From Inquilinus sp. Marseille-Q2685 (GTDB lineage: Bacteria > Pseudomonadota > Alphaproteobacteria > DSM-16000 > Inquilinaceae): DNA of 64,000 nt. How positions within the stretch are numbered: position 1 is the first letter of the stretch; each line of letters starts with the position of its first letter. This document shows positions 1-14,594 of the stretch, piece after piece. The stretch is taken from the NCBI RefSeq assembly GCF_916619195.1, contig NZ_CAKAKL010000004.1, forward strand, positions 124,001 to 188,000, written 5' to 3'. The position numbers were made by a program, and so were the translations under genes. The notes under the pieces were generated by a model. That model ran no database searches. It saw only the letters and a list, made by a program, of their open reading frames with translations, and was not told the DNA's origin.

Positions 1-312
1 GTCAACCTGGGCAATCCGGCGGAGCTGACGGTGCGCCAGCTGGTGACGCACGTCCTGGCGCTGACCGGATCGCGCTCCCGCATCGTGCGGAAGCCCCTGC
101 CGGTGGACGACCCGCAGCGGCGCCGGCCGGACATCGCGCGGGCGAAGGCGCTGCTCGGCTGGGCGCCGCGGATCGCGCTGGAACAGGGTCTGCGCCGGAC
201 CATCGCCTATTTCGCCGAGGCGGCGACGCCGCGTCATGCCCCGGCGGTCGGCTTCGGAGCCCTCCGGAAGGGCACCGGGCTGCCGGCCAAGGCGGAAGCC
301 GTCACGCCCTGA
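1..312 (+). CDS. NAD-dependent sugar epimerase/decarboxylase, C-terminal part (UDP-glucuronate decarboxylase-like)
   Basis: Only the last 103 codons are in the window; the reading frame is open at base 1. The visible end has the typical tail of extended short-chain dehydrogenases acting on nucleotide sugars: a VNLGNP start, a PLPVDDP stretch, then R-PDI-AKALLGW and a closing GL-TI-YF. That order is characteristic of UDP-glucuronate decarboxylase, which makes UDP-xylose in the cytoplasm, though dTDP-glucose dehydratase-like enzymes share it. The catalytic YxxxK and the NAD-binding Rossmann motif lie upstream, outside the window. The gene runs convergently into the AraC gene and overlaps its end by 11 bases. 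It may supply a sugar donor to glycosylation genes further along, but that is only inference. Confidence 0.8.
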   Translation, partial: VNLGNPAELTVRQLVTHVLALTGSRSRIVRKPLPVDDPQRRRPDIARAKALLGWAPRIALEQGLRRTIAYFAEAATPRHAPAVGFGALRKGTGLPAKAEAVTP

Positions 313-1435
313 CGCCGGCATGGGGCTCGAGGCTGCGGCGATAATCCGACGGCGTTGAGCCGGTGTGGCGCCGGAACGCGGCGGTGAAGGCTGAAGGAGT
401 CTGGTAGCCCACCGCCAGCGCGATGTCCGTGATGCGGATCCGGGGATCCCGCAACAGCTGCCGAGCCTGCTCCACACGCAGCCCGGTCAGCCATTCATGC
501 GGCGTGCGCCCCGTGGCATGGCGGAAGGCCGTGCAGAAATGCGACCGGCTCAGGGACGTCAGTGCGGCGAGCTCGTCGAGGCCGATGGCCTGGTCCAGAC
601 GGTCGGCCATGTAATCGGTGACTCGCCGGACCTGCCAATGCGGCAGCCCTCGCCGCGGCAGCGCTGCCGGCGCCTGGCCGAGGGTGGAATGGGTCCGCAA
701 CAGATGCGTGCACAGCAGGTCGAGCCCCTGTTCGACGAACAGGCGGCGGGACGGGTCGGGATGGGTCGCCTCGCGGCTGAGCGCGCGCAGGATGTGCGCG
801 CCGACCGGATCCGCTTCGCCGAGGCGGGGCGCCAGTTCCACCCGGCGGCCGCGGGTGAGGGGTTCGGCGAACCCCTGGAGGCGGGCATCGCTCAGCATCG
901 CATAGGACAGGGGCGACGCGACATCGATGTCCCAATCCCCGTCCCAGCCGGCCGGCACGATCGTGATGGTCCCCGGGCGCCCGACGCCGGCCAGGCGCAT
1001 CCGCCCGCGCCGCCAGACCCGGGGCGACGGCGGGCCGTAATAGGTGCCGATCGTATGCGCCGGCAGCCCCGGCATCGGCTCGTGCATCTCCAGATGCAGC
1101 CAGCGGGTGGTGATCAGCGTCTCGCGCTCGGGGATTTCCGCGACGGTCGGCAGCGGCCCGGCGATCACCCCGGCGCAGAGCTCGAACGCGGTGCGAGGGG
1201 CGAACGCCGTCGGCTGCGGGTCCCCGGCCTGATCGGCGCCCTTTGAATTTCCAGCGCTCTGGCGGGGCCGGGCCAATCGAGGCGACCTTGGCTGGATGTG
1301 GCGAGGTCTCAAATGTCGCCGAAAGCCGCGTCCGGCGCCAGTCCCGACCTGCACCTCCTGCGAGCCGGAACGGGTCCGGCCACGCCGTTGCCCGCTGCGG
1401 GCGAGCGGTCTCATGCCGTCGCAATCTTGCGACAA
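302..1435 (-). CDS. AraC-family transcriptional regulator
   Basis: The C-terminal 100 residues form a two-helix-turn-helix AraC domain. The first helix region contains LDELAALTSLSRSHFCTAFR and the second ITDIALAVGYQTPSAFTAAF, followed by the family signature ending TPSDYRR. The central region, about residues 85-260, would be the effector-sensing part; no ligand can be inferred. The start is uncertain. From the ATG at 1435 the first 75 or so codons contain rare AGA, CGA, CCT and TTG codons and look non-coding, so translation probably begins further in, possibly at the GTG at 1168. The gene is divergent from the molybdenum hydroxylase operon at 1560, which makes that operon a likely target. Confidence 0.85.
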   Translation of the reverse strand: MSQDCDGMRPLARSGQRRGRTRSGSQEVQVGTGAGRGFRRHLRPRHIQPRSPRLARPRQSAGNSKGADQAGDPQPTAFAPRTAFELCAGVIAGPLPTVAEIPERETLITTRWLHLEMHEPMPGLPAHTIGTYYGPPSPRVWRRGRMRLAGVGRPGTITIVPAGWDGDWDIDVASPLSYAMLSDARLQGFAEPLTRGRRVELAPRLGEADPVGAHILRALSREATHPDPSRRLFVEQGLDLLCTHLLRTHSTLGQAPAALPRRGLPHWQVRRVTDYMADRLDQAIGLDELAALTSLSRSHFCTAFRHATGRTPHEWLTGLRVEQARQLLRDPRIRITDIALAVGYQTPSAFTAAFRRHTGSTPSDYRRSLEPHAGVRA

Positions 1436-1559
1436 ACACCGAAATCCGCGAACGGCGGCAAGGACGGCATTCTCGTAATGAAGTCCTTTCCCGCCTCGGC
1501 AGGCCGGCGTCGATTCCCTCGACTGGCCGGACGCTGGGCTCGTCCGAAAGGAGCCCTGG

Positions 1560-2036
1560 ATGCCCTATGCGCTCAACGTCAATGGCAAATCCCATTCGGT
1601 CGATGTGGATGGAGACATTCCGCTGCTGTGGGTGCTGCGGGACGTCATCGGGCTGACCGGGACCAAGTTCGGCTGCGGCATCGCCATGTGCGGCGCCTGC
1701 ACGGTCCATCTGGACGGGCAGGCAGTGCGGTCCTGCGTCACCTCCGTCGCGGACGCCGCGTCCTCCGCGATCACCACCATCGAGGCGGTCGGCGACACCG
1801 AGACGGGCGCCCGCATCCAGCGGGCCTGGCTCGCCGAGGAGGTCGTCCAGTGCGGCTACTGCCAGTCCGGCCAGATCATGTCGGCGACGGCCCTGCTCGC
1901 GATCAACCCGTCGCCGACCGACGCGGACATCGATGCCGTGATGGCCGGCAACATCTGCCGCTGCGGCACCTATCCGCGCATCCGCGCGGCGATCAAGCGC
2001 GCCGCCGGCCTGGCGCTGACCGAGGAGGGCCGCTGA
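1560..2036 (+). CDS. 2Fe-2S subunit of a xanthine-dehydrogenase-family hydroxylase (IorA-like)
   Basis: A 158-residue protein with two 2Fe-2S cluster motifs. The N-terminal plant-ferredoxin-type site is [13 protein letters not shown] with a later single Cys. The C-terminal four-helix site has CGYCQSGQ and [10 protein letters not shown]. Length and order match the small subunit of isoquinoline 1-oxidoreductase and related aldehyde dehydrogenases, in which electrons pass from the molybdenum centre through these clusters. It sits one base upstream of the large subunit gene, so the two are surely co-translated. A GAAAGGAG-like ribosome binding site precedes the ATG. No signal peptide is seen; such subunits are usually carried across the membrane with their Tat-bearing partner. 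Confidence 0.93.
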
Positions 2037-2037
2037 C

Positions 2038-4188
2038 ATGGGCGTTTTCGCCGCCACCGTGTCCGGCCAGCTCTCGCGCCGGTCCTTCCTGATCTCCGCG
2101 GCCCTGGCGGGCGGCAGCCTCGTCATCGGGCCGCGCTTCGCTGCGGCTGCCGAGCCGTTCATCCCCAACCCGTTCATCCGGATTCCGCAGGCGGGCCCGA
2201 TCGAGCTGGTGATCCCTTCCGCCGAGATGGGCCAGGGCGTCTACACCGGCATCGCCACGCTGATCGCCGAGGAGCTGGAAGTCGCGCTGGAGCAGATCCG
2301 GGTCGTCCCGGCGCCCGCCGATCCCTCGCGCTATGCGCATCCCATGCTCGGCGACCAGGTCACCGGCGGCTCGGTCACCATCCGCGGCTTCTGGGAGCCG
2401 ATGCGCCGGGCCGGCGCCGCGGCCCGCACGATGCTGGTCGCCGCCGCCGCGCGGGACTGGGGCGTCCCCGCCTCGGCCTGCCGGGCCGAGGCCGGCGAGG
2501 TGGTCCATCCCGAAAGCGGCCGCCGCATCGCCTATGGCGCGCTCGCCGCCAAGGCCGCGCAGGAGCCGGTGCCGCAGCAGGTCGCGCTGAAGCCGGCAGC
2601 GGAGTACAGGCTGATCGGCAAGCCGTCGCCGCGCCTCGACACCCCGGACAAGGTGAACGGCGGGGCCCTGTTCGGCCTCGACGCCCATCCGCCCGGCGTC
2701 CGCTTCGCGGCGCTGGCCATCTGCCCCACCTTCGGCGGAACGCTGAAGGCGGTGGAGGACGGCGACGCGTTGCGGGTCAGGGGCGTGCGCCAGGTGGTCC
2801 GGCTGAGCGATGCGGTCGCCGTCGTGGCCGACAACACGGGGGCCGCCCGCAAGGGGCTCGCCGCGCTGCGCATCACCTGGGATCCGGGGGCGAATGGCGG
2901 GCTGACGACGGCCGAGCTCGAACGCCGCATCGATGGCGCCATGACCAGCGGCGCAGCCCTGGTGGCGCACGAAAGCGGCGATGCCGCCGGCGCCGAGGCC
3001 GCCGCGTCCCGCGGCATCGAAGTCGTCTATCGCATGCCGATCCTCGCCCACACCGCCATGGAGCCGATGAACTGCACGGTCCATGTGCGCCCGGACGCCT
3101 GCGATATCTGGGTCGGCACCCAGGTGGCGGGCCGCGCCCGACAGGCCGCGGCGCAGGTCACCGGCCTGCCGGTCGAGAAGGTGGTGGTCCACAACCACCT
3201 GCTGGGCGGCGGCTTCGGCCGGCGCCTCGACCATGACAACGTGATCGTGGCGACCCGGGTGGCGCAGCAGGTGGACGGTCCGGTGCAGGTGGTCTGGAGC
3301 CGCGAGGAGGACATCCGCCACGACTCCTACCGCTACCTCAACCGCAGCCGGCTCGACGTCAGGCTGGGGCCCGACGGGATGCCGGTTTCCTGGCGCCATC
3401 GCGTGGTCGGCCCGGCGATCATGGCGCGGTTCCTGCCGATCCTGTTCAAGGACGGCATCGACCTCGACATCACCGGCGGCGCCGAGAGCCCCTACGACAT
3501 CCCGAACAAGCGGGTCGAGTTCGTCCGGCACGAGGGGCCCGAGGGCATGCTGACGGGCAACTGGCGCGGCGTCGGTCCCACCCGCAACGCCCCGGCGGTC
3601 GAGGGCGGGATCGACGAGGCGGCGCATCTCGCCGGCCGCGACCCGGTGGAATACCGCCGCCAGCTGCTGGGCAAGGCGCCGCGGCTGCGCGGCGTGCTGG
3701 ACCTGGCGGCCGAGCACTCTGGATGGGGCACGCCGCTCGATGCCGATCGCGGCCGCGGCGTGGCCGTGCTGGCGGATTTCGGCAGCTTCGCCGCGCTGGT
3801 CGCCCAGGTGCATGTCGCCAAGGACGGCACCTTGAAGGTCGAGCGCATGGTCTGCGCCGTCGATTGCGGGCAGGCCGTCAACCCCGACATCCTGCGGCAG
3901 CAGGTCGAGAGCGGCATCGTCTACGGCCTCAGCGCGGCGCTCTACGGCCGCCTCACCATCGCCGGCGGGGCCGTGGTCGAGGGCAATTTCGACGACTCGC
4001 CGGTCCTGCGCATCCATGAGTGCCCGCCGATCGAGGTCCATATCGTCCCCAGCACCGAGCCGCCGGGCGGCGTCGGCGAGCTCGGCACGCCAGGCGTGGC
4101 CCCGGCCCTGATGAACGCGATCTTCGCCGCCACCGGCAGGCGCCTGCGGGACCTGCCGCTCGACACGAGCCAGCTGAGGAGGGCGTAA
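2038..4188 (+). CDS. Molybdopterin-binding subunit of a xanthine-dehydrogenase-family hydroxylase (IorB-like)
   Basis: A 716-residue large subunit. The N-terminus has a Tat signal (SRRSFLISAALAGGSLV) ending near AAAAEP, so the mature enzyme is probably periplasmic. The body shows hallmark molybdopterin segments: EMGQGVYTGI, GGGFGRR in the middle, NWRGVGPTRNAPAVE and, near the end, VGELGTPGVAPALMNAIF. The last carries the Glu that acts as catalytic base in this family. The substrate cannot be told from sequence; isoquinoline-type heterocycles or aldehydes are the usual candidates. With the 2Fe-2S subunit before it and a diheme cytochrome after it, this forms a three-gene respiratory dehydrogenase operon. 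Confidence 0.92.
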   Translation: MGVFAATVSGQLSRRSFLISAALAGGSLVIGPRFAAAAEPFIPNPFIRIPQAGPIELVIPSAEMGQGVYTGIATLIAEELEVALEQIRVVPAPADPSRYAHPMLGDQVTGGSVTIRGFWEPMRRAGAAARTMLVAAAARDWGVPASACRAEAGEVVHPESGRRIAYGALAAKAAQEPVPQQVALKPAAEYRLIGKPSPRLDTPDKVNGGALFGLDAHPPGVRFAALAICPTFGGTLKAVEDGDALRVRGVRQVVRLSDAVAVVADNTGAARKGLAALRITWDPGANGGLTTAELERRIDGAMTSGAALVAHESGDAAGAEAAASRGIEVVYRMPILAHTAMEPMNCTVHVRPDACDIWVGTQVAGRARQAAAQVTGLPVEKVVVHNHLLGGGFGRRLDHDNVIVATRVAQQVDGPVQVVWSREEDIRHDSYRYLNRSRLDVRLGPDGMPVSWRHRVVGPAIMARFLPILFKDGIDLDITGGAESPYDIPNKRVEFVRHEGPEGMLTGNWRGVGPTRNAPAVEGGIDEAAHLAGRDPVEYRRQLLGKAPRLRGVLDLAAEHSGWGTPLDADRGRGVAVLADFGSFAALVAQVHVAKDGTLKVERMVCAVDCGQAVNPDILRQQVESGIVYGLSAALYGRLTIAGGAVVEGNFDDSPVLRIHECPPIEVHIVPSTEPPGGVGELGTPGVAPALMNAIFAATGRRLRDLPLDTSQLRRA

Positions 4189-4190
4189 GG

Positions 4191-4844
4191 ATGCCGCCGC
4201 GCTCACGCCGGATCGGGCTGGTGCTCCTGGCCTCGCTCGCCTCCGCCGCCATCACGCTCGGGATCGGATCCGGCGTCGCCGACACGGCGCAGCAGGATCC
4301 GAGCCGGACACTGAAGGATGTCGCCGCGTTCCAGTCGATCGCGAATGCCGGCGACCGGTCACGCGCCCTCTTCACCGAGGCGGCGAAGGTCATCACCGAC
4401 CCGCGCTGCATGAACTGCCACCCGGTCACGGGCCGGCCGACGCAGGGCGACGACCTGCATCCGCATGTGCCGTTCATGCAGGCGGGCGCCAGCCGCATCG
4501 GGGTGGACGGCCTGGCGTGCAGCGCCTGCCACCGGGCGGAGAACACGCCCATCGTGGGCAGCCGCCTGCGGTCCATCCCCGGCAACGCGCACTGGTCGCT
4601 GGCGCCGGACAGCATGGGCTGGCAGGGGCATTCGCTCGGCTACATCTGCCGGCAGCTCAAGGATCCCGAGCGCAACGGCGGCCGCAGCCTGGCCCAGATC
4701 CGGCAGCACCTGGCCGAGGACCATCTCGTGGCCTGGGCATGGCATCCGGGCGAAGGGCGGCGGCCCGCCCCCGGCACCCAGGCCGGGTTCGGCGCGCTGA
4801 TCGCCGCCTGGATCGAGACCGGCGCCGAGTGCCCGGCCGAGTGA
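4191..4844 (+). CDS. Diheme cytochrome c, probable electron acceptor of the hydroxylase
   Basis: A 217-residue protein starting at the ATG two bases after the large subunit stop, preceded by GAGGAGGGC. The first 30 residues are a membrane-spanning or cleavable signal segment rich in Leu and Ala. Two c-type heme attachment sites are visible: CMNCH at about residues 73-77 and CSACH at about 110-114. Several later His and Met residues could serve as distal ligands. In related operons a cytochrome c takes electrons from the 2Fe-2S subunit and passes them to the terminal oxidase chain. The motif pair and short spacing resemble small multiheme proteins rather than standard class I cytochromes. It ends 12 bases from the convergent methyltransferase gene. 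Confidence 0.85.
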   Translation: MPPRSRRIGLVLLASLASAAITLGIGSGVADTAQQDPSRTLKDVAAFQSIANAGDRSRALFTEAAKVITDPRCMNCHPVTGRPTQGDDLHPHVPFMQAGASRIGVDGLACSACHRAENTPIVGSRLRSIPGNAHWSLAPDSMGWQGHSLGYICRQLKDPERNGGRSLAQIRQHLAEDHLVAWAWHPGEGRRPAPGTQAGFGALIAAWIETGAECPAE

Positions 4845-4856
4845 TACGGCTGACCC

Positions 4857-5786
4857 TCACCGCCCTCTGACAAGGTGGAAGGCGAGCCCGTCCCACAGGG
4901 CGAAGGGACGGGTCCCTACCCGGCGCAGGCGAAAGCCGGTCTCGGCCGCGAGATCGGCCAGCTCGCGCCGGTCCGCCTCGTCGTCTCCCCGATAGGAGTG
5001 GTTGAGGATCAGGAGATGGCCGCCGGGCCCTAGCACCCGCGCCGCCTCCTCGACATGGCGCCGCACCAGGGCCGGCCCGGCGAGCACGAGATAGGGGAAG
5101 CTGTCGGCGGCCAGGATCGTGTCGACGGAGCCGTCGGCGATCCCGGCCAAGTCGCGGCCCGAGGTCCGGCGGATCTCGACATTCGCCAAGCCGGCGCAGC
5201 GCCGCCGCGCCTCCGCCACCATCCGGGCCGAGATGTCGAGACCGACGACCCGCCGGACGCGGCCGGCCAAGGCCGCGGCGAAGCGGCCGATGCCGCAGCC
5301 GAGGTCCAGCACCGTGCGGTCGGGGCCGAGCAGGCCCCATTCCGCCATGCGGCGCACCACCTCGGCCGTCGCCAGCGCCAGCCGGCCGGCATCGCCGAAG
5401 GAATGCAGGGCGACGCTGGCCTCGGGCGACACGCCGGCGGCGCGGTCGAAGGCCCGGGCGAAGGCTTCCACGGCCTGCGCCTCGTCACCGATCGCTGCGT
5501 CGTGCCGGACCTCGCCCAGCACGGCCTGGAGGGTGTCCCAGGCCGCCGGGTGTGCGGCATGCATCCGCCGCAGCGCCTGCAGCCGCCGGCGGGCTGCGAT
5601 CTCGCCCGGGGCGATCGTCGTGTCGAGCGCGTCCAGCAGCCCCGTCAGCGCCCGGCCGCTTTCGGCCTGGATCAGCAGCCGGGTCAGCGCCGACGCGACC
5701 GGCAGCTCTCCCGTCAGGCAGCCGCGCAGGGCGGGCCGAAGCGCGTCCGGGCATCCGGCCGCGCCGATCGCCTCGTCGACGGTCAC
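4857..5786 (-). CDS. Class I SAM-dependent methyltransferase (last gene of the inositol-glycoside-like operon)
   Basis: A 309-residue protein. The Rossmann fold begins around residue 155 with the SAM-binding motif VLDLGCGIGRFAAAL, followed by an acidic strand end (VGLDIS) and a later ILAADSFPYLV and GGHLLILNHSY. The N-terminal 150 residues are helical and less typical, and may recognise the substrate. The start codon overlaps the stop of the upstream acyltransferase gene by four bases, so it is translationally coupled as the last gene of a ten-gene minus-strand operon. It probably O- or N-methylates the small molecule or glycan made by the operon; the acceptor is unknown. Confidence 0.88.
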   Translation of the reverse strand: MTVDEAIGAAGCPDALRPALRGCLTGELPVASALTRLLIQAESGRALTGLLDALDTTIAPGEIAARRRLQALRRMHAAHPAAWDTLQAVLGEVRHDAAIGDEAQAVEAFARAFDRAAGVSPEASVALHSFGDAGRLALATAEVVRRMAEWGLLGPDRTVLDLGCGIGRFAAALAGRVRRVVGLDISARMVAEARRRCAGLANVEIRRTSGRDLAGIADGSVDTILAADSFPYLVLAGPALVRRHVEEAARVLGPGGHLLILNHSYRGDDEADRRELADLAAETGFRLRRVGTRPFALWDGLAFHLVRGR

Positions 5787-6775
5787 GCCCGGACCCGCCG
5801 GAAGCTGCGGCGGCGGTTCCAGCGGTCGACCGCGCCCCAGGCGTATTTGTACGGCTCCTGTCCGCGCAGGAAGTGGAACTCCCGCCCGCCGTCGCGGAGC
5901 GCGGCGGCGATGGCATGGCCGATCAGGATCGCCCCCGGGCTCTCATGGGCATAGTCCGGGTCGAAGCCGCCGAGATAGGCGTAGGTCCGGCCGCGCGCGG
6001 ACAGGCCGTGGAAGGCGCCGGCCACCCGCCCCGCGATCCGCAGCCGGTAGAGCCGCGCCAGCCCGGAGCGGAGCAGGCCGGGCAGCGCCGCACGGTGGAA
6101 GCGCCGGACCGCATCGTCCCGCAGCAGGCCGGACTGGCCCTGATCGGCCCATCGGGCGCCGTGCAAGCGTTCGAGATCGTCGAGGAAGCCATCCGCCGCG
6201 TCCTCGACCGGCTCGATCTCGGTGGCGCCGCGTTTCCGCGCCAGGGTCAGCGCCCGCCGCAGCTGCTTGCGCCGGCGGGTCGGGACGCAGCCCGAAAGAT
6301 CGTCGGGCCCGGCGAGATCGAGGGTCGGGCAGGCGCTGTGGCCGGCGGCCGTCTCGGCACAGGCCGCCGGGCAGCGCAGCCGCAGGGCGGCAGCGCCGGA
6401 CGCCAGATCCTCCAGCTCCCAGGACTCCCAGTCGAGATCCAGGGCCGCATGCTCGATCACCGCGGCCGCGGGGCCGGCCTGGTCGGGATCGAGCAGCAGG
6501 TCGAGATAATCGGTGGTGCCGAGCCCGAGCAGAAGCAGCCTGCGGCCCAGCGCTCCGTCCTCGAGATAGAACGGCGCCAGCCCGACCAGCTGTCCGTCCT
6601 GCCGCACCGCGATCGTCCGCAGCCGGCCGGGCGCGAAGCTGCGCCACCAGGGCAGCAGCCAGGCGGGGGACTGGAACGGCGTCGCCGCCGGGCAGCGGAG
6701 CCAGAGGTCCCACCAGTCCGGCTCGAGCGCGGCCAGCGCCGGCTCCTCCGTCAGCACCTCGGCGAAGAGGCTCAT
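5783..6775 (-). CDS. GNAT-fold acyltransferase (BioF2-like/CelD-like, Acetyltransf_6)
   Basis: A 330-residue protein of the double-GNAT type found in CelD and BioF2-domain proteins. Visible signs are a WWRSFAP and APFYLEDG region near the N-terminus, a central [15 protein letters not shown] basic segment, and a C-terminal acyl-CoA-type fold with [10 protein letters not shown] and [13 protein letters not shown]. Such proteins transfer acyl or aminoacyl groups to amines on sugars. The ATG overlaps the stop of the glycosyltransferase gene by four bases. In the operon it occupies the position that MshD, an acetyltransferase, holds in mycothiol synthesis, just after a PIG-L deacetylase and a glycosyltransferase. 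That functional parallel is inference; the family itself is fairly clear. Confidence 0.82.
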
Positions 6776-7830
6776 CCCCAGACCCGCAGCGCCGGCGCGG
6801 GCTGCGCCGCCAGCCGGCGATAGACAGCGAGATAGCCCCGCACCATCCGGTCGAGCGAGAAGCGCCGGACGGCCTCGGCCCGGCATTCGGCCGGGTCGAG
6901 ACCGGCGGCGGCGCGTATCGCCCCCGCCATCTCGGCCACGTCGCGGACCAGGAAGCCGGTGCGGCCGTGATCGACGATCTCCGGCAGCGCGCCGTTCGGG
7001 AAGGCGACGACCGGCGTGCCGCAGGACAGCGCCTCCATCGCCACCAGCGAGCTGGTCTCCGGGCACAGGCTCGGCACCACCAGGCAGCGCGCGGCCGCCA
7101 GGAAGCGCCGCTTGCGCCGCAGGCCCAGCGGCCCGACGAAACGCTGCCGGGCGTCCAGCCGCGGCACCACCTCCTGCTCGAAATAGCGGATATGGGCGTC
7201 GTAGGGGAACAGCCGGCCGGCCACGATCAGCGGCACATCGGCCTGCCGCGACGCCTCGAGGGCGAGATGGATGCCCTTCTCCGGGCAGATCCGGCCGAGC
7301 ATCAGGGCGAAGCCTCGCTTCGCATGCGGCCGCGCGCCGTCGCCGATCGAGACGCCGTTCGGGATCGGCGGCAGCAGCCGGGCGCCCGCGGGGGCGTCGC
7401 GGCACTGCGCCTCGGACACGCCGTGCAGCCACAGGTCCGGGCGCAAGGGCTTCAGCGCCTCGGCCGGGAACCAGCCGAGCGGCAGGTGCAGGGTGACCAG
7501 GGTCGGCCCGTCCGCCGGCAGATAGGCGTCGAAGTCGATGCCGTGCAGATGGACGAGATCGACCGGCCAGCGGCGCCGGCAGTCGGCGATGGCCCGACGC
7601 TGCGCCGCCCAGGCCCGCTGCCGCGCTGCGTCGTCCAGCGGCCCGGGCTCCGCCGGAATCGCACACAGCGTGCCGGCGGCCTCGGAGCCTTCGCAGGCCA
7701 CCACCAGCGAGCGGTGCCCGGCCGCGACCAGGGCGCGGTCGAGGGCGGACAGCACCTGCTCCGCCCCACCGACCGCGTCGGGGCCGACCGGCGCCAGCGG
7801 GTAGGCGACGTTGAGCACGGTCAGAGCCAT
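6772..7830 (-). CDS. Glycosyltransferase family 4 (MshA-like role proposed)
   Basis: A 352-residue GT-B glycosyltransferase. The N-terminal acceptor domain starts with a typical [16 protein letters not shown] loop. The C-terminal donor domain has [15 protein letters not shown] and the retaining E-x7-E signature as [11 protein letters not shown], followed by [16 protein letters not shown]. These mark GT4 enzymes that use UDP- or GDP-sugars in the cytoplasm. The ATG at 7830 is chosen because it starts the acceptor domain cleanly; upstream in-frame sequence is a shadow of the neighbour. It overlaps the deacetylase gene by ten bases. With the inositol phosphate synthase in the same operon, an inositol-phosphate acceptor as for MshA is plausible but unproven. 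Confidence 0.9.
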
Positions 7831-8654
7831 GGCGGCGGGTCCAGCTCCAGATCGGCAACGGCCGCGGCGACGAGGCCGGGCCACTCCGCCGCGGTCAGCC
7901 CCCAGGGCCAGGCGTCGTAATGCACCCGGCCGCCGTTGGGCAGCCGCGCGAAGTCGTAGGGCGGCGCCCGCCGGAAGCGCTCGACCTGGTCGGTGAACGG
8001 CGCCAGGGTCCGGCGCTGGGTCTCGTGGCAGGCCAGCATCCGCCGCTTGGTCTCCCAATCCGCCTCATCCAGCATCAGGACGATCTCCGGCGACGCCTCG
8101 TCCGGCGGGAAGCGCTGCAGCACCGGGCCGTCGGGGCCGAGGTGATAGAAGGCCATCTCGGCGATCGCCGGCGCCGCTGCGCCCTGCCGCTGCAGCAGGC
8201 GGCGCGCGGCATGGACGGCGAAGCACGTGGCGTCGTGGTCCGGATGACCGCCCTCATAGGGATGGGTCAGGGCCAGCCGCGTGCCGCGCGCCGCGAACTG
8301 GGCGGCCAAGGCGCGCGTGACGGCGGTGAGGCGTCGGCAGGCCTGCTGGTCCGGCACGTCGAGGCACAGCAGCGCGGCGGCCGGGATGCCGGCCGCCTCC
8401 ATCGCGGCTGTCAGCTCCCGCTGCCGGGCCGCCGCATAGTCCTGCCAGGTGACGTAGCCGTAGAGCCGCGCATCCTCCAGCCCCCGCGGCGCGCCGTCGG
8501 TGACGTGCAGCATGGCGATGTCCGGCAGGTGGCGCAGTTGCCCGCCGATGCCGATGGTCTCGTCGTCGGGATGGGCGACGACGACCGCCGCCTCGGCCGG
8601 GGCGATCGGGGCGCCCGCCAGGGAGGACAGCAGCGTCGACGCCGCGACGCCCAT
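7821..8654 (-). CDS. PIG-L family N-acetylglucosamine-type deacetylase (MshB-like role proposed)
   Basis: A 277-residue zinc deacetylase of the PIG-L/LmbE family. The first metal and catalytic motif is [12 protein letters not shown] at residues 24-35. The second is HPDHD at 137-141 in a [11 protein letters not shown] context, supplying the remaining zinc His. Known members remove acetyl from GlcNAc attached to inositol (MshB, PIG-L), from bacillithiol precursors (BshB) or from antibiotic sugars. The protein has normal family length and no signal peptide, so it acts in the cytoplasm. It overlaps the GT4 gene and follows the glycosidase-like gene by four bases. A PIG-L enzyme in one operon with inositol-3-phosphate synthase is the central clue for an inositol-glycoside pathway. 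Confidence 0.93.
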
Positions 8655-8658
8655 CGCC

Positions 8659-9582
8659 TCAGCCGAGCGCCAGCCGGGGCGCCCGCGGCTCGGCCCGGGC
8701 GCCGTAGCGGCGGATCATGTCGGCGCAGAAGGCGGCGAACTCCTCCCTGTCGACCGGCGGGCTGGTGTGGTGGGGCATCAGACCGCGATGCTCCGGCGTG
8801 AAGCAGAAGGTGACGGTGACGTCGAAATCGGCCAGCGCCTCCATCTGCCGGTCGAACCAGGCCAGGGCGTCGGGCCGGAAGCTGTCGGCCCAGGACAGGC
8901 CGGTGCGGAGGGTGGTGACGCCGAGCCGCTTCATCCAGGCCACGGCGTCGTCCAACCGGTGGTCCTGGTAGTGGAACCACTGGCACAGGCCCAACGCCGG
9001 GGCGTGCCGGGCGAAGCGCTCCAGCGCCGGCTTCGGCGTGCCGTCCTCGCGCAGGAGGCCCATGTAGAAATGGCGGTAGTAGGACGAGCCCTCGGCCTCC
9101 TTGTGCCGGGTCGTCGCCTCCCAGGCGCTGGGCAGGTCGTACAGGCTGTACCAATGGATCCGCGGCGTGCGGCCGACGAGAAGCTCGGCGGGGCGGTCGA
9201 GGCCCCAGGCCTGCACCTCCTCCGCCCCGAAGCTGGAGACGCCGACCTCGCTGACCCAGACCGGCAGGTCGGTAACGGCACGGATCTCCTCCAGCTTCTC
9301 CGGCCATTCCCCGATCTGCCACAGGTTCCAGTCCAGCGGGAAGCCGTGCACCGCCACCGCGTCGAGATGGTCCAGCACGCCCCGCCGCTTCATGCCCTCG
9401 ATGAACACCGGGTCGATCGGCGAGATGCCACCCAGCACCTTCGGGATGTCCGGGTTCTCGGTGGCGATGGCGTCGGCCGCGGCGATCGCCATGTCGGCGA
9501 ACAACGCCCAGTCCGGATCCAGCTCGCGGTCCCAATGCGACTTGTTGTTGGGCTCGTTCCAGATCATCGCCGCTTCGATCAT
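8659..9582 (-). CDS. Glycosidase-like TIM-barrel protein (clan GH-A motifs in permuted order)
   Basis: A 307-residue protein annotated in relatives as beta-xylosidase-like. The N-terminus has the acid/base motif of clan A hydrolases, WNEPNN, at about residues 8-13. The nucleophile-type motif WVSEVGVSS lies near residue 114. The C-terminal part instead looks like the first strands of such a barrel: LGVTTLRTGLSWAD, then VTVTFCFTPEHRG, then IRRYG. That part normally precedes the NEP motif, so the chain appears circularly permuted. It has no signal peptide. Start is the ATG at 9582, overlapping the methyltransferase stop by four bases. It could trim or transfer a sugar of the operon product; whether it still hydrolyses is unknown. 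Confidence 0.75.
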   Translation of the reverse strand: MIEAAMIWNEPNNKSHWDRELDPDWALFADMAIAAADAIATENPDIPKVLGGISPIDPVFIEGMKRRGVLDHLDAVAVHGFPLDWNLWQIGEWPEKLEEIRAVTDLPVWVSEVGVSSFGAEEVQAWGLDRPAELLVGRTPRIHWYSLYDLPSAWEATTRHKEAEGSSYYRHFYMGLLREDGTPKPALERFARHAPALGLCQWFHYQDHRLDDAVAWMKRLGVTTLRTGLSWADSFRPDALAWFDRQMEALADFDVTVTFCFTPEHRGLMPHHTSPPVDREEFAAFCADMIRRYGARAEPRAPRLALG

Positions 9583-10340
9583 GCATGCCTCCCGCGGTTC
9601 GGATAGACGGCGCCCTCCCCTTCCGGCCGGCCGGCGGGGCGGCAGAGATAGACCTCCGGCTCCGGATGCGCGGCGATCTCGAAGCCGGCGCTGCGCAGCA
9701 TCGCCTCGACGCAGGCGCGGTTCGGCACCCACCAGTTGGTCGGGTCGTCGGCGTAGCGGTGCTCGATGAAATGCAGCTTCGGGAAGTCTGGCCGGTCGAA
9801 CAGCGCCTCGTTCCAGAACGGGTAGTTCGGCTCCAGCGGCGCCACCTCGGGGCTGCCCCGCTGCATCGACTGGAACACCATCAGGTCGCGGACCACGTGC
9901 TCGCGCACCAGGTCGAGCGCCAGCAGCGGGTGGCGCAGGTGGTACAGCACGCCCATGAACAGGACGATGTCGAAGCGCTCGCCCAGCGCCGCCACGTCGT
10001 AGACCGAAAGATGCCGGAACTCGATGTCGAGATCCGCGATCTCGGCGGCGAAGCGCGCCTGGGCCAGGTAGCTGTCGTCGAAATCGACGCCCAGCACCCG
10101 GTCGGCGCCGCGGCGCTTCATCTCCAGCGAGTAGAAGCCGCCGTTGCAGCCGATGTCGAGCACGGTGCGGCCGCGCAGGTCCTGCGGGATGGCGCCGGCG
10201 AAGGCCCTCCACTTCACCGCCGGGTAGTCGCCCAGGAAATGGTCGGGGGCGGTCGCGACCCCGTCGAGGTCGATGTTGTGGAACCAGGGGCCGAGCGCCT
10301 CGGCCCGACGGCGGATCTCCTCACCGGACAGGCGTGCCAT
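9579..10340 (-). CDS. CmoB-like SAM methyltransferase (family I recall as TIGR04290)
   Basis: A 253-residue methyltransferase. The SAM site is VLDIGCNGGFYSLEMKRRGA, followed by VLGVDFDDSYLAQARFA and FMGVLYHLRHPLLAL, all close to the pattern of CmoB, the tRNA wobble-uridine carboxymethyltransferase. The rest differs: there is no CmoB N-terminal domain, and a distinct FWNEALFDRPDFPKLHFIEH segment follows. I recall a family of this kind that travels with glycosyltransferase and glycosidase genes in scattered proteobacteria and has no assigned substrate. It is co-translated with the glycosidase-like gene and lies 13 bases after the nucleotidyltransferase gene. Confidence 0.88.
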   Translation of the reverse strand: MARLSGEEIRRRAEALGPWFHNIDLDGVATAPDHFLGDYPAVKWRAFAGAIPQDLRGRTVLDIGCNGGFYSLEMKRRGADRVLGVDFDDSYLAQARFAAEIADLDIEFRHLSVYDVAALGERFDIVLFMGVLYHLRHPLLALDLVREHVVRDLMVFQSMQRGSPEVAPLEPNYPFWNEALFDRPDFPKLHFIEHRYADDPTNWWVPNRACVEAMLRSAGFEIAAHPEPEVYLCRPAGRPEGEGAVYPNRGRHA

Positions 10341-10353
10341 GATCGCGCCTCCG

Positions 10354-11151
10354 TCACTGCTGATAGCGAATGGGGCTGCCGTAGGATCGGCCCGCCGGCC
10401 GGCCGGTGGTCACGCGGGCCTCCGACGCCGCGGCATCGCCGAGCAGCCCGATCGCCGCCCGATAGCCGTTCAGCGTGCCGACATCGACATAGGACAGGCC
10501 GGACCGGACGCCGACGGCCGTGCCGCCTTCGGCCAGCCAGGCATTGACCAGCGTGCCGATGTACTCGTCCCGCCGGCCGCGCCGCAGCCACAGCGCATGC
10601 AGCTGCCGCAGCACCGCGCCCGGCATCTTGAAAGCGCCCCAGATCCAGCGGCTCCCGGCATCGGGCTGCTTCACCTGGATCTCGCGCACCGCCCCCTGCC
10701 CGTCCAGCACCACGGCGTCGAAGAACTCCGGATGGTCGACCGGGAACAGCAGGAAGGACAGGCCGTCCTCCGGCAGGTCGGCGAAGCCGTCCTTCGGGAA
10801 CCAGACCGTGTCGGGCAGGCCGACCAGGACGGGCTCATCGGGCCGGATCAGCGGCAGGGCGCGGAAGATCGCGTCGCACAGGCCCGAGGGCTGCGGCTGC
10901 ACCACATAGGCGGCGGCCGCGCCGCCGTAGTCGCTGCCGTAATATTCCAGGATGTCCGACTTGCCGGGGGCGATGACGAAGCAGATCTTGTCCGCCCCAG
11001 CCTCGATCATCCGTTCCAGCAGGTATTCGCTGACGGCGCAGGGGCGCTCCTCGCCGCCGTCGATCCGGCTGCCGACCGGCAGCAGCTCCTTGGAGAAGGC
11101 CAAGGGCTGGATCCGGCTGCCGCGTCCCGCGGCGGGCACGATGCCCCACAT
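10354..11151 (-). CDS. Sugar-1-phosphate nucleotidyltransferase
   Basis: A 265-residue nucleotidyltransferase of the RmlA/GalU type. It carries the activation loop GRGSRIQPLAFSKELLPV at residues 9-26, with the conserved Arg and Lys that bind the nucleotide. ICFVIAPGKSDILEYYG and a substrate segment around LVGLPDTVWFPKDGF follow. The Ser in GSR replaces the usual Thr. The expected reaction is NTP plus sugar-1-phosphate giving NDP-sugar plus pyrophosphate in the cytoplasm. In this operon it would make the activated sugar for one of the two glycosyltransferases. It is three bases from the upstream glycosyltransferase stop. The exact sugar cannot be read from sequence. Confidence 0.88.
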   Translation of the reverse strand: MWGIVPAAGRGSRIQPLAFSKELLPVGSRIDGGEERPCAVSEYLLERMIEAGADKICFVIAPGKSDILEYYGSDYGGAAAAYVVQPQPSGLCDAIFRALPLIRPDEPVLVGLPDTVWFPKDGFADLPEDGLSFLLFPVDHPEFFDAVVLDGQGAVREIQVKQPDAGSRWIWGAFKMPGAVLRQLHALWLRRGRRDEYIGTLVNAWLAEGGTAVGVRSGLSYVDVGTLNGYRAAIGLLGDAAASEARVTTGRPAGRSYGSPIRYQQ

Positions 11152-11154
11152 CGA

Positions 11155-12246
11155 TCAGGCCTCCATGGCAATGGGTGGCGCCGGCCGCGCCGAGGCGAGC
11201 AGCGCCTCGAGATCGGCGGCCCGGCGGTCGGAGGTGTGCTCGTCCAGCACGCGCTCGCGGGCGGCGGCGCCGACCCGGCGCAGCTCGGCGTCGGTCAGGT
11301 CCAGCGCCGCCAGCGCGTCCTCGGTGCCGCGGGCCAGCAAGATCTCGCGGCCGGGCGCGAAGAACTCGTCCAGCCCGGGCCAGGCGTCGCTCAGCACCGG
11401 CGCGCCGCAGGCCGCGGCCTCGAACAGCCGGCCGGACGGGCACCAGCCCATCCCGGCCATGGCGCGGCGGGGGACGTTCAGGGTCAGCCGCGACGAGGCG
11501 TAGAAGGCCGGGTGGGCGCCCGGCGCCAGATGGCGCAGGAAGTAGATGTTGCCGCTCCCCGGGGAGCTGTCCGGGGACTGCGCCCCGGCGATGACGAAGC
11601 GCAGGCCGGGCCGCCGCCGCGCCGGCTCGACCAGCAGGGCCTCCAGCGCCGCCTGCCGGTCGGCCGCATAGGTGCCGATATAGGACAGATCGCCGGCGAA
11701 TTCGGGCCGCGGCGGCGCCGGCCGGTGCACGTCCGGGTCGACATGGCCGTAGAGCGGCACGGCCAGGCGGGCGCCCAGGCGGTCGCGCAGTGCGTCGAGC
11801 GCGCCGCCGCCGGTGTAGCTGAGGACGATGTCGAAATCGGCGAGGCCGCGCGGGCCGAGATAGGTCAGCGGCTGCCCCTGCTCCAGCCGCTCCAGCGTCA
11901 CCGGGGTGTCGAGGTCGTAGAAGACGTGCAGCGGCCGCGGCGCGTCCAGCACCAGCCGGGTCGCTTCGACCCCGTCCGGGCAGAAGGAGGTGACCATCGC
12001 GGCGTCGGCATCGGCCAGATGGCGCGCCGCCAGACCTCGGACCTCATCCCAGCCCGGATACAGCACCAGCTCGCCCTGCTCCAACGCGTAGAGGTCGCGG
12101 GCGCCGGCGTAATAGGGCACGTCGCGCTCGAAGAACACCACCCGCCAGCCGCGGCGCGACAACGCCCGGATCAGGCCGCGCCACAGCGTGGCATGGCCGT
12201 TGCCCCAGGAGGAGCTGACGGTGAGGCCGAACACGACGAGCTTCAT
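11155..12246 (-). CDS. CgeB-like glycosyltransferase (Glyco_trans_1_2 type)
   Basis: A 363-residue GT-B protein. The N-terminus reads SSSWGNGHATLWRGLIRAL and GWRVVFFERDVPYYAG, features of the CgeB/spore-maturation group. The donor domain has LSYIGTYAADRQ, a basic linker, then FYASSRLTLNVPRRAMAGMG and GRLFEAAACGAPVLSD, the phosphate-binding and ribose-binding region of this group. It has no signal peptide. Sitting between the nucleotidyltransferase (3 bases) and the phosphatase (9 bases), it is the second glycosyltransferase of the operon. This suggests a product with at least two sugars or alternative acceptors. Confidence 0.86.
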   Translation of the reverse strand: MKLVVFGLTVSSSWGNGHATLWRGLIRALSRRGWRVVFFERDVPYYAGARDLYALEQGELVLYPGWDEVRGLAARHLADADAAMVTSFCPDGVEATRLVLDAPRPLHVFYDLDTPVTLERLEQGQPLTYLGPRGLADFDIVLSYTGGGALDALRDRLGARLAVPLYGHVDPDVHRPAPPRPEFAGDLSYIGTYAADRQAALEALLVEPARRRPGLRFVIAGAQSPDSSPGSGNIYFLRHLAPGAHPAFYASSRLTLNVPRRAMAGMGWCPSGRLFEAAACGAPVLSDAWPGLDEFFAPGREILLARGTEDALAALDLTDAELRRVGAAARERVLDEHTSDRRAADLEALLASARPAPPIAMEA

Positions 12247-12255
12247 CGCGGCCCC

Positions 12256-12852
12256 CTAGTCGACGGTCTCGTTGAGGCCGAGCAGCCGGGCGCCCCAGTC
12301 GCCGATGGCGAGCCGGGTGATCGAGGCGGGCGCGATGTCGAAGCGCGGCCATGCATCGATCGCCAGGCCGAGATGGTGCAGCACCGCCGCCTTGATCACG
12401 TCGGCGTGGCTGACCAGGGCGACGCAGCGGCCGCGATGCTCCTCGACCAGCCGCTCCATCAGCCCGAGGACGCGCCGCTGCACATCCAGCATGGTCTCGC
12501 CGCCGGGGGTGCGCACCAGGCTGCGCACGGCGTTCCAGCGCTGCCACAGCGGATCCTGCTGCAGCACCTCGAAATCGCGGCCGGCCCAGCGGCCGAAATC
12601 GATCTCGTCCAGCTCCGGCGCGGTCTCCACCGTCCGGCCGCAGGCCACGGCCAGCGCCTGGGCGGTCTGCTGTGCCCGTTCGCGCGGGCCGGCGAGGACG
12701 GCGTCGATACGCTCCAGCCGCAGGCGCTGCGCCAGGCGCTCGGCCTGCGCCCGGCCAGCCTCGCCCAGCACCACGCCAGGCATCCGGCCGGCCAGGAAGC
12801 CGCCGACATTGTCGTGCGCGGCATGGCGCAGCAGCAGGAAGGTGGTGGTCAT
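12256..12852 (-). CDS. Histidine phosphatase (phosphoglycerate mutase-like)
   Basis: A 198-residue histidine phosphatase. The phosphohistidine motif is LLLRHAAHD near the N-terminus, where the usual RHG is RHA. The second catalytic His is in [11 protein letters not shown]. An acidic residue in [11 protein letters not shown] and an Arg in [11 protein letters not shown] complete the pocket. Members of similar size include alpha-ribazole phosphatase and phosphoglycerate-mutase-like sugar phosphatases. The ATG overlaps the inositol-3-phosphate synthase stop by four bases, so it is coupled to that enzyme. It may dephosphorylate inositol phosphate or the phosphorylated glycoside, the step left to an unidentified enzyme in mycothiol synthesis. 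That role is inference. Confidence 0.88.
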
Positions 12853-13946
12853 GCCGTTCCCGATTGCGGGTCGCCGGCGATGAAGCGCAGCGTCCGCTCC
12901 CGCGCCACGGCGTCGGTGAACTGCTGCGGCGGCGACTTCATGAAGTAGCTGGACGGACCGACCAGGGCGCCGCCGATGCCGCGGTCGAGGCCGAGCCGGG
13001 CGCAGCGCACCGCGTCGATCACGATGCCGGCGGAGTTCGGAGAATCCCAGACCTCGAGCTTGACCTCGGCGTTCAGCGGCACGCCGCCGAAGGTGGTGCC
13101 CTCGAGCCGGATATAGGCCCATTTCCGGTCGCTGAGCCACGGCACGTAGTCGCTGGGGCCGACATGCACGTTCTCGGCGGCGAGCGGGATGTCGAGCTGG
13201 CTCATCACCGACTGGGTCTTGGAGATCTTCTTCGATTCCAGCCGTTCGCGCTCGAGCATGTTCTCGAAATCGGTGTTGCCGCCGAAATTCAGCTGGTAGG
13301 TGCGGTCCAGCCGCACGCCGCGCTCGCGGAACAGGTTGGTCAGCATGCGGTGGATGATGGTGGCGCCGACCTGGCTCTTGATGTCGTCGCCGATGATCGG
13401 CAGGCCGTGCTCCTCGAAGCGCTGCCGCCATTCGGGGCGGGAGGCGATGAAGACCGGCATGCAGTTGACGAAGGCGCAGCCGGCCTCCAGCGCCCGCTCG
13501 GCGTACCATTCGGCGGCGTGCTGCGACCCAACCGGAAGATAGGAGACGAGGACGTCGGTCCCGCTTTGCCGCAGGACGCCGGCGACGTCGGCCACCGGCT
13601 CGTCCGACTCCTCGATCCGGTCGCGCAGATACTTTCCGAGGCCGTCCAGAGTGTTGCCGCGCTCCACACGCACCCCCGTCGGCGCCACATCGGCGAAGCG
13701 GTGGGTGTTGTTCGGCGGGGCATAGATCGCCTCCGACACATCCCGGCCGACCTTGCTGGCGGCGACATCGAAGGCCGAGGCGACCTCGATATCGCCGACG
13801 TGATAGCCGCCCAGCTCAATGTTCATCAGCCCCGGCGGCGGCTCGTTGCCGCCGGGTGTGTCGCGGTAATAGGTCAGGCCCTGGACGAGCGACGAGGCGC
13901 AGTTGCCGACGCCCACGATTCCCAGGCGAATGGGTTTCGAGCTCAC
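12849..13946 (-). CDS. ino1: Inositol-3-phosphate synthase, short bacterial type
   Basis: A 365-residue enzyme converting glucose-6-phosphate to inositol-3-phosphate with NAD. The Rossmann motif is [15 protein letters not shown] at residues 9-23. Later family blocks include [48 protein letters not shown] with the catalytic Lys, and [11 protein letters not shown]. The length matches the actinobacterial enzyme of about 367 residues, not the 500-residue eukaryotic form. It is first in the ten-gene operon and has a perfect EcfG-type promoter 87-112 bases upstream of its ATG. De novo inositol synthesis is uncommon in alphaproteobacteria, so its stress control and its partners are notable. Confidence 0.95.
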
Positions 13947-14032
13947 GCTTTCGACTCCCTGCGTTGCGGCGCGGGTCGGATCGGGAGAGGCCGGGCCGGG
14001 GCGGCCCGCCGAACGTATGTTCCTGCTGGGCC

Positions 14033-14058
14033 AACGGCATGATCGGAAGGCCGGTTCC
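14033..14058 (-). promoter_or_regulatory. EcfG-type general stress promoter of the ino1 operon
   Basis: Read on the minus strand the site is GGAAC, 17 bases, CGTT, a perfect match to the consensus of the alphaproteobacterial general stress sigma factor. The -35 element lies at 14058-14054 and the -10 element at 14036-14033. Transcription would begin near 14026, leaving an untranslated leader of about 80 bases before the ino1 ATG at 13946. It sits in the 144-base gap after the sigma gene, so the operon can be transcribed on its own. Confidence 0.75.
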
Positions 14059-14090: not shown

Positions 14091-14594
14091 CTACCAGGCG
14101 ATGCCGGTCTCGTGCCGCAGATGCTCGCGGGCGCGGCCGAGGCGGGAGCGGACGGTGCCGATCGGGATGTGGAAGGCGTGCGCCGCCTCCTCATAGGAAT
14201 CGCCGTTGATCGCGACCGCTTCCACCAGCTCGCGGTGGTGGCGCTGCAGCCGGTCGATGGCGCTGCCCAGCCGGGCGAGGTCGAGGACATCGTCCTGGCT
14301 CGGCGGCTGCGGCCCGTCGAAATCCTCGGCCGGCACGGCGACCAGCCGGTTGCGGCGCTCGAACTGCGACAGGAACACCCGCTTCATCACGACGCAGAGC
14401 CAGCCGGCGATGTTGGTGCCCGGCTGCCACAGGTGGAACTTGTTGTAGGCGCGCAGCAGCGTGTCCTGCAGCAGGTCCTCCGCGTCGGCGCGGTTGCGGG
14501 TGAGGGATCGCGCATAGCGCCGGAGCTCGCATATCACCGGGGCGACGACGGCGGTGAATTCGGCGCGATCCATGGCACGACGTTGGTCCGGCAT
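14091..14594 (-). CDS. ECF RNA polymerase sigma factor (EcfG/ECF15-like)
   Basis: A 167-residue sigma factor with only regions 2 and 4. Region 2 contains RYARSLTRNRADAEDLLQDT and then WQPGTNIAGWL, the sequence pattern seen in EcfG factors. Region 4 has the helix-turn-helix SYEEAAHAFHIPIGTVRSRL. The ATG at 14594 is chosen because AAGGGA stands eight bases before it; the next ATG at 14573 has none, and longer in-frame sequence upstream is AT-rich and non-coding. No anti-sigma gene (NepR type) is adjacent, so it is likely an EcfG paralogue rather than the primary stress sigma. Its position directly upstream of a stress-promoter operon fits that. Confidence 0.88.
   Translation of the reverse strand: MPDQRRAMDRAEFTAVVAPVICELRRYARSLTRNRADAEDLLQDTLLRAYNKFHLWQPGTNIAGWLCVVMKRVFLSQFERRNRLVAVPAEDFDGPQPPSQDDVLDLARLGSAIDRLQRHHRELVEAVAINGDSYEEAAHAFHIPIGTVRSRLGRAREHLRHETGIAW

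Follow-up and report, generated by a model that had tools for sequence, protein, structure and literature searches.

A two-operon gene cluster in Alphaproteobacteria with a circularly permuted PslG/GH39-like glycosidase, an Ino1 and EcfG-type promoters

Several described systems resemble in part a ten-gene operon that lies within a 64,000-nucleotide stretch of the Inquilinus sp. Marseille-Q2685 genome (RefSeq assembly GCF_916619195.1, contig NZ_CAKAKL010000004.1, positions 124,001 to 188,000), here called the window. Mycothiol biosynthesis (Ino1-MshA-phosphatase-MshB-MshC-MshD) shares with it, by a match below the equivalog cut-off, the type of Ino1, and also the broad classes GT4 glycosyltransferase, PIG-L deacetylase, GNAT acyltransferase and phosphatase. 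The EcfG-controlled trehalose synthesis of Bradyrhizobium diazoefficiens yields a soluble sugar under what would be the same sigma factor, by the excerpt of PMC8092242 available, but its OtsA/OtsB route is short and lacks inositol. Glycosidases of the PslG/GH39 type share with one product of the operon, which we call GHX, a barrel with an NEP motif, a second glutamate and detectable sequence similarity; GHX differs from them in being permuted, in having as its first strand the one that precedes the NEP motif, and in lacking an export signal by hydropathy. The bradyrhizose O-antigen likewise involves an inositol-related unusual sugar in Alphaproteobacteria. Finally, TIGR04290 and TIGR04295 ('B12_rSAM_oligo') are NCBI hypothetical equivalogs with no stated function; the first includes a methyltransferase of the operon, and the cut-off of the second is exceeded by a relative of a radical-SAM enzyme encoded next door. 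In the outputs examined, their records make no link to a permuted glycosidase, to Ino1 or to stress promoters. Since NCBI curators named both families, the proteins had already been noticed; neither family name, nor any description of the cluster, was found in the open-licence literature searched, and no circularly permuted clan GH-A glycosidase is described among the literature matches listed. What we describe is a probable oligosaccharide cluster of a known kind, whose new features are the rotation of one enzyme and the unusual connection to a regulator.

The ten genes are one half of a widespread two-operon cluster, and an earlier automated reading of this DNA (the original prediction) had covered that half only. 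We judge the chances about even that this cluster, under general-stress control, directs the cytosolic assembly of a soluble oligosaccharide that contains inositol. Its most distinctive component is GHX, a circularly permuted PslG/GH39-like barrel whose unpermuted relatives occur in sister clusters without ino1.

The permutation is seen directly in alignments. When GHX was compared by tblastn with linear homologs (L046 to L051), it matched in two pieces of swapped order, query residues 192-198 to 294-298 lying directly before residues 2 or 7 to 184. A doubled GHX sequence aligned in one piece to 8/8 linear homologs (seven distinct, as L142 and L184 are the same Tistrella region) with E values of 2e-31 to 8e-37, against only 2e-20 to 2e-25 for the best piece of the single sequence; by this doubled alignment GHX lacks the linear strand order of a GH39/PslG-like barrel. 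The best solved-structure relative is PslG itself (E 6e-06, profile A2), which shows the same swap, but with a first piece of merely 5.8 bits. At one locus, L147, a stop codon immediately precedes the GHX start, so there is no hidden N-terminal half there. Asn9, Glu10 and Glu112 are invariant in 38 sequences; presuming from clan GH-A enzymes that these are the catalytic residues, their conservation suggests that GHX is a working retaining glycosidase. In an AlphaFold model made with the 38 sequences (mean pLDDT 76, pTM 0.81), the first strand is the one immediately preceding the NEP motif. Helices alternate with seven strands of at least three residues, and a two-residue strand occupies the expected place of the eighth; pLDDT falls below 50 at residues 82-85 and 148-167 and in the tail. 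In all eight linear cases the barrel is fused ahead of an SDRb domain, whose nearest solved relatives are CDP-tyvelose 2-epimerases in the one fusion examined. Rhizobium etli CFN 42 (p42b) and Tistrella mobilis (pTM1) carry the linear version as a single annotated gene, with no ino1 in the stretch. Here a glycosidase has been circularly permuted in nature, its permuted and linear versions both survive in sister clusters, and the gene fusion suggests which enzymes work together.

To collect relatives of the locus, six GHX sequences were aligned and the alignment was used to scan public genomes. At least 355 were found, and the best 80 named loci were kept; these are the most similar relatives, not a random draw. 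Sixty-seven of them are well flanked, with at least 9 kb on both sides of the GHX anchor, and form the denominator of the counts below. As the original prediction had stated, all ten open reading frames are present, in the given order and packed on the minus strand from 4857 to 13946. With the starts chosen, the junctions from ino1 downward are -4, +9, +3, +13, -4, +4, -10, -4 and -4 bases, that is, overlaps of 4-10 and gaps of 3-13 bases. The features of the window are as follows.

14091-14594, minus strand: extracytoplasmic function (ECF) sigma factor gene directly upstream of the operon, 38% identical to the EcfG-like frame beside the genome's NepR
14033-14058 (G000:C4:138033-138058), minus strand: EcfG-type general-stress box GGAAC-N17-CGTT, exact match, about 86 bases before the ino1 start
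12849-13946, minus strand: ino1, inositol-3-phosphate synthase of the mycothiol type (TIGR03450, below the equivalog cut-off); 63/67 loci
12256-12852, minus strand: histidine phosphatase (His_Phos_1 by Pfam/NCBIfam), core gene; 66/67 loci
11155-12246, minus strand: CgeB-like glycosyltransferase (Glyco_trans_1_2 by Pfam); 48/67 loci
10354-11151, minus strand: sugar-1-phosphate nucleotidyltransferase-like protein (Pfam); 47/67 loci
9579-10340, minus strand: TIGR04290 family methyltransferase (NCBIfam), core gene; 65/67 loci
8659-9582, minus strand: GHX, circularly permuted PslG/GH39-like TIM-barrel glycosidase (permutation and invariant residues), core gene
7821-8654, minus strand: PIG-L family deacetylase (Pfam), accessory module; only 11/67 loci
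6772-7830, minus strand: GT4 glycosyltransferase GT4w (Pfam), accessory module; 21/67 loci
5783-6775, minus strand: PF13480 GNAT-fold acyltransferase (Pfam), accessory module; 20/67 loci
4857-5786, minus strand: S-adenosylmethionine-dependent methyltransferase MT2 (Pfam), accessory module; 18/67 loci
1-312, plus strand: 3' end of UXS, last gene of the second operon, with the frame ending at 312

The classes proposed earlier for these proteins agree with Pfam and NCBIfam, except that the glycosidase-like protein, GHX, matched no model of either collection at E 0.01. The methyltransferase first called CmoB-like is a TIGR04290 member (389.6 bits, cut-off 300), with CmoB-type enzymes and EvdMO1, presumably an everninomicin enzyme, among its relatives in the PDB. 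The His_Phos_1 protein is a candidate inositol-phosphate or sugar-phosphate phosphatase.

The second operon was located by searching the window's genome for a glycosyltransferase typical of the relatives. It adjoins the left edge of the window on the plus strand (G000:C4, about 115260-124000) and encodes two epimerase-type SDRs (SDRa and SDRb), a TIGR04295-like B12 radical-SAM enzyme, four glycosyltransferases and UXS. The radical-SAM enzyme is 61% identical to the relative that exceeds the TIGR04295 cut-off. UXS belongs to the UDP-glucuronic acid decarboxylase family by annotation in relatives, NCBIfam giving only sub-cut-off sugar-dehydratase matches. In the window's genome the two operons are convergent and separated by a 4.5-kb stretch; in Inquilinus limosus MP06 (L151) their matches lie within about 550 bases of each other. 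At least three of the eight second-operon genes are present in 56/67 loci, and SDRa in 42/67.

The window's locus groups near Inquilinus among the 80 loci; the others come from Microvirga, Mesorhizobium, Roseomonas and kin, Methylobacterium, Bradyrhizobium, Rhodoplanes, Devosia and more. Four core genes (ino1, the histidine phosphatase, TIGR04290 and GHX) stand together in 62/67 loci. The linkage of ino1, set beforehand as a test of the original prediction, held in 63/67 well-flanked loci, and Ino1 is present in 7/8 genomes with a permuted GHX. The full ten genes occur together in 7/80 loci; since the core is four genes plus the second operon, the ten-gene set is a variant. Across 385 genomes of the class, a mycothiol-type Ino1 is present in 33, a permuted GHX in 8 and the linear form in 6 more, with Ino1 in 7/8 genomes carrying permuted GHX and in 26/377 others (Fisher 1.4e-7); G162 is the one permuted-GHX genome of the eight with no Ino1 match. 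In the reverse direction, each of 21 genomes with TIGR04290 (20 over the cut-off, and G004 just under it with a match split over two contigs) also carries GHX or its linear form, 17 being permuted and four linear-type, G635 being called linear-type by its matched part and frame length only. Two genomes of the window's own genus that lack TIGR04290 have neither form of the glycosidase. Ino1 accompanies 15/17 of the permuted and 0/4 of the linear-type cases; in the two permuted genomes where it was missed, G002 and G012, the cluster runs off the end of short contigs, and no Ino1 was found in G110, G176 and G273. A pair of partners, the zinc dehydrogenase ZnDH and a Gfo/Idh/MocA protein, is present in 19/67 loci and scores best, below cut-off, on IolM and IolG-type inositol dehydrogenase models, which fits inositol chemistry. 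A tblastn search of plasmids with GHX gave 146 records, 98 covering most of the query; these are biased to Sinorhizobium and Rhizobium strains and were unused for frequencies.

A perfect general-stress promoter had been predicted before ino1, and GGAAC-N17-CGTT is indeed exact there. As the pattern occurs 126 times in the window's genome, against 47 for a reversed control, a single box would be weak evidence; the evidence is strong because the box recurs. Among the 70 of 80 loci that have ino1 and enough upstream DNA, a box lies within 350 bases before ino1 in 29 by the strict and 46 by the relaxed pattern. Upstream of internal genes the corresponding counts are 7/732 and 17/732, and relaxed-pattern controls before ino1 gave 5 (reversed), 3 (complement) and 0 (shuffled) of the 70 loci. 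The second operon has its own exact GGAAC-N17-CGTT (C4:115090-115115, about 170 bases before the SDRa match), so that exact boxes head both operons in the window's genome. Where SDRa is the first gene, in a wider locus set, a strict box precedes it in 13/59 and a relaxed box in 24/59 cases; the Sinorhizobium meliloti 1021 cluster has relaxed boxes only. Published EcfG consensus sequences are GGAAC-N16-CGTT (excerpt of PMC3892343) and GGAAC-N17-20-GTT (excerpt of PMC6599016). Both features of an EcfG regulon, the GGAAC-N16/17-CGTT promoter and a NepR-EcfG-PhyR locus, are present in the genome; NepR exceeds its cut-off, and the adjacent EcfG- and PhyR-like frames were assigned by place and sigma-factor similarity only. 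Inquilinus limosus DSM 16000 has a counterpart of the ECF sigma gene upstream of the operon, in the corresponding position. Genes of this kind lie next to the cluster in Inquilinus, in 15 loci of Mesorhizobium and in four stretches of the Tistrella type, two of which are the same region. The five that were compared, from Mesorhizobium and Tistrella-type loci, are 42-50% identical to the EcfG-like frame beside the NepR of the window's genome. From these features we infer that the cluster is probably under EcfG general-stress control. In the portions of the EcfG-related literature covered by a search by term, the main texts make no mention of ino1 or the cluster.

On this basis a pathway can be proposed. 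Ino1 would convert glucose 6-phosphate to inositol 3-phosphate, and the histidine phosphatase would remove a phosphate, with inositol phosphate itself or the product of the first glycosyl transfer as its substrate. The nucleotidyltransferase, the UDP-glucuronate-decarboxylase-like enzyme and the two epimerase-type SDRs would supply nucleotide-activated sugars, to be added by several CgeB/GT4 glycosyltransferases. TIGR04290, joined in some strains by the B12 radical-SAM enzyme, would then modify the product, probably by methylation, while GHX, which keeps both candidate catalytic glutamates, may trim or transglycosylate the chain. In the window's lineage the PIG-L, GT4, GNAT and second methyltransferase proteins may attach an amino sugar and then deacetylate, acylate and methylate it. 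Inositol would thereby be a building block of the product, which would remain soluble and might protect the stressed cell as trehalose does. Among the seeded families over the 80 loci, simple hydropathy predicts at least two membrane spans in the matched part of hypM (2/14) only. Given this near-absence of membrane proteins, a soluble product is the simplest reading, and a surface glycan its main rival. Trehalose is a protectant controlled by EcfG in B. diazoefficiens (excerpt of PMC8092242), which makes it plausible that EcfG controls another sugar as well. More than 100 genes of that species are under the general stress response, and it was long unclear which of these are important (same excerpt). 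The chemical structure of the product is not predictable from these sequence data.

A defined, testable pathway is available in strains used in the laboratory, for example Sinorhizobium meliloti 1021 (permuted, with ino1) and Rhizobium etli CFN 42 (linear). Apart from trehalose, we know of few small-molecule outputs of the alphaproteobacterial general stress response. More tentatively, and with rather more doubt than confidence, we propose that Alphaproteobacteria share an undescribed class of stress metabolites, namely cytosolic, inositol-capped, methylated oligosaccharides. Their synthesis would be switched on by EcfG, in some cases by a paralog of EcfG that the cluster encodes for this purpose. 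An intracellular transglycosylase would complete them; it would have arisen when a PslG-like domain, formerly fused to a sugar-nucleotide epimerase, was circularly permuted at the time when inositol was recruited.

Several points weigh against a soluble, stress-controlled inositol oligosaccharide. The product, substrates and role of the cluster are predictions from its genes. The hydropathy test for membrane proteins is crude; few membrane proteins do not prove a soluble product, and a flippase or ligase could be encoded elsewhere. Peripheral soluble glycosyltransferases also build lipopolysaccharide (LPS) cores and glycolipid head groups, and a gene for a pyruvyl transferase, an exopolysaccharide-type enzyme, lies by GHX in Sinorhizobium and in two Devosia loci (L094, L121). 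One genome with permuted GHX, G162, has no Ino1 match anywhere although it is rated 100% complete, and three Methylobacterium loci (L073, L087, L098) and Devosia submarina L121 have GHX with no ino1 in the locus. As for regulation, the loci in the box count are related to one another and hence not independent. Neither a strict nor a relaxed box was found before ino1 in 24/70 loci. Of the 15 loci that are Roseomonas-type by record title, 14 are among these 24; stress control may therefore be absent in that group, and its regulation may have been rewired, via another regulator or none. In linear-type clusters a strict box precedes SDRa in 0/8 stretches (seven distinct) and a relaxed one in 3/8.

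Some of these points bear on a stress-made surface glycan, which could be an LPS core branch, a glycolipid head group or an exopolysaccharide with inositol or an inositol-derived residue, its chain processed by GHX as PslG processes Psl. The kinship of GHX with PslG, which we take to be an exopolysaccharide glycosidase, the pyruvyl transferase neighbours and the usual place of soluble CgeB/GT4 enzymes in envelope glycan synthesis all speak for such a product. The blocks of all 80 loci, by contrast, contain a single unclassified membrane-rich reading frame, with no co-located flippase, polymerase, ligase or membrane transporter apparent elsewhere by hydropathy, and the ten window proteins have no membrane span by the same measure except one marginal stretch in PIG-L. 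We regard a surface glycan as possible but doubtful. A less probable alternative, indeed an unlikely one, divides the operon into independent modules, with ino1, phosphatase, TIGR04290 and GHX making one compound and PIG-L, GT4, GNAT and methyltransferase another under a merely shared promoter. The patchy distribution of the accessory genes, mostly found side by side (GT4 in 21, GNAT in 20, the second methyltransferase in 18 and PIG-L in 11 of 67 loci), would suit this. Against it, these genes mostly follow GHX directly and on the same strand in Inquilinus, Mesorhizobium, Alsobacter, Plastoroseomonas and Bradyrhizobium.

Synthesis by the cluster of bradyrhizose or another inositol-fused sugar for an O-antigen seems very improbable. 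Many Bradyrhizobium loci carry the cluster, and bradyrhizose is an inositol-fused monosaccharide according to a title cited in PMC4743980, but the excerpt of that paper attributes it to another, 11-gene cluster, from which ours is set apart by description only. Slighter still is the chance of a mycothiol-like pathway on a GlcN-inositol scaffold with a cysteine ligase that has been lost or is encoded at another genomic site. The original prediction had seen here a mycothiol-like set complete but for MshC, and GT4, PIG-L and GNAT do co-occur with Ino1 in the window. Of these proteins only Ino1 appears to be of the mycothiol type, at 532.8 bits on TIGR03450 and so below the cut-off of 638; GT4 reaches 43.4 of 462.5 bits on the MshA model TIGR03449, the sole NCBIfam match of PIG-L is BshB2 (24 bits against a cut-off of 195) with no MshB match at E 0.01, and the PF13480 acyltransferase has no NCBIfam match, MshD included, at that threshold. 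Genome-wide, no MshC exceeds the cut-off; the best match (285.9 of 485.1 bits) is probably a cysteinyl-tRNA synthetase, the model matching all 14 controls and exceeding its cut-off in one. PIG-L is, moreover, optional and absent from most relatives, and the cluster has many additional sugar and methyl steps. The mycothiol-like framing therefore falls, while the broader proposal of an undescribed inositol glycoside made under stress was a fair inference from a linked set with Ino1 headed by a stress promoter.

Variants of the cluster differ in content. The locus L147, from G162, has the genes from CgeB through MT2 with a permuted GHX, and no Ino1 genome-wide. In the Methylobacterium loci L073, L087 and L098 the permuted GHX is followed by a PIG-L-like frame, with no ino1; TIGR04290- and phosphatase-like frames are found in L087 and L098, and neither in L073. 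These three loci are a reduced version of the cluster. Roseomonas-type loci that keep the cluster with no EcfG box before ino1 are L058, L062, L067, L074, L090, L092, L104, L109, L111, L116, L119, L120, L122 and L129.

The stretch between the two operons (window 302-4844) encodes, by eye, an AraC-type regulator on the minus strand, a 2Fe-2S/molybdopterin-oxidase-like pair and a cytochrome-like protein; its 2Fe-2S gene is also found in I. limosus DSM 16000. Clustering of unclassified reading frames gave mostly antisense frames and a Microvirga synteny block, as judged by eye, and only its 2Fe-2S group was used.

A conserved protein of about 580 residues is encoded in 11/67 loci, often by ino1 (L136:7300-9045, left of the window; L034:8365-10113). 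It had no Pfam or NCBIfam match; by eye, we take it to have a phosphoribosyltransferase-like motif followed by a kinase-like half. A phosphopentomutase is present in 16/67 loci, for example at L032:10939-12144, where it exceeds the NCBI cut-off, and in other Bradyrhizobium-type loci, hinting at pentose chemistry in the product. Tistrella mobilis pTM1 (L184) has a gene for DNA topoisomerase IB with the decarboxylase-like gene on one side and the TIGR04290 gene on the other; Ku and ligD are no more than about 4 kb away. Ku and topoisomerase IB are listed in the EcfG table of Sphingomonas melonis (excerpt of PMC6599016), and the pTM1 cluster is placed as if in a stress island.

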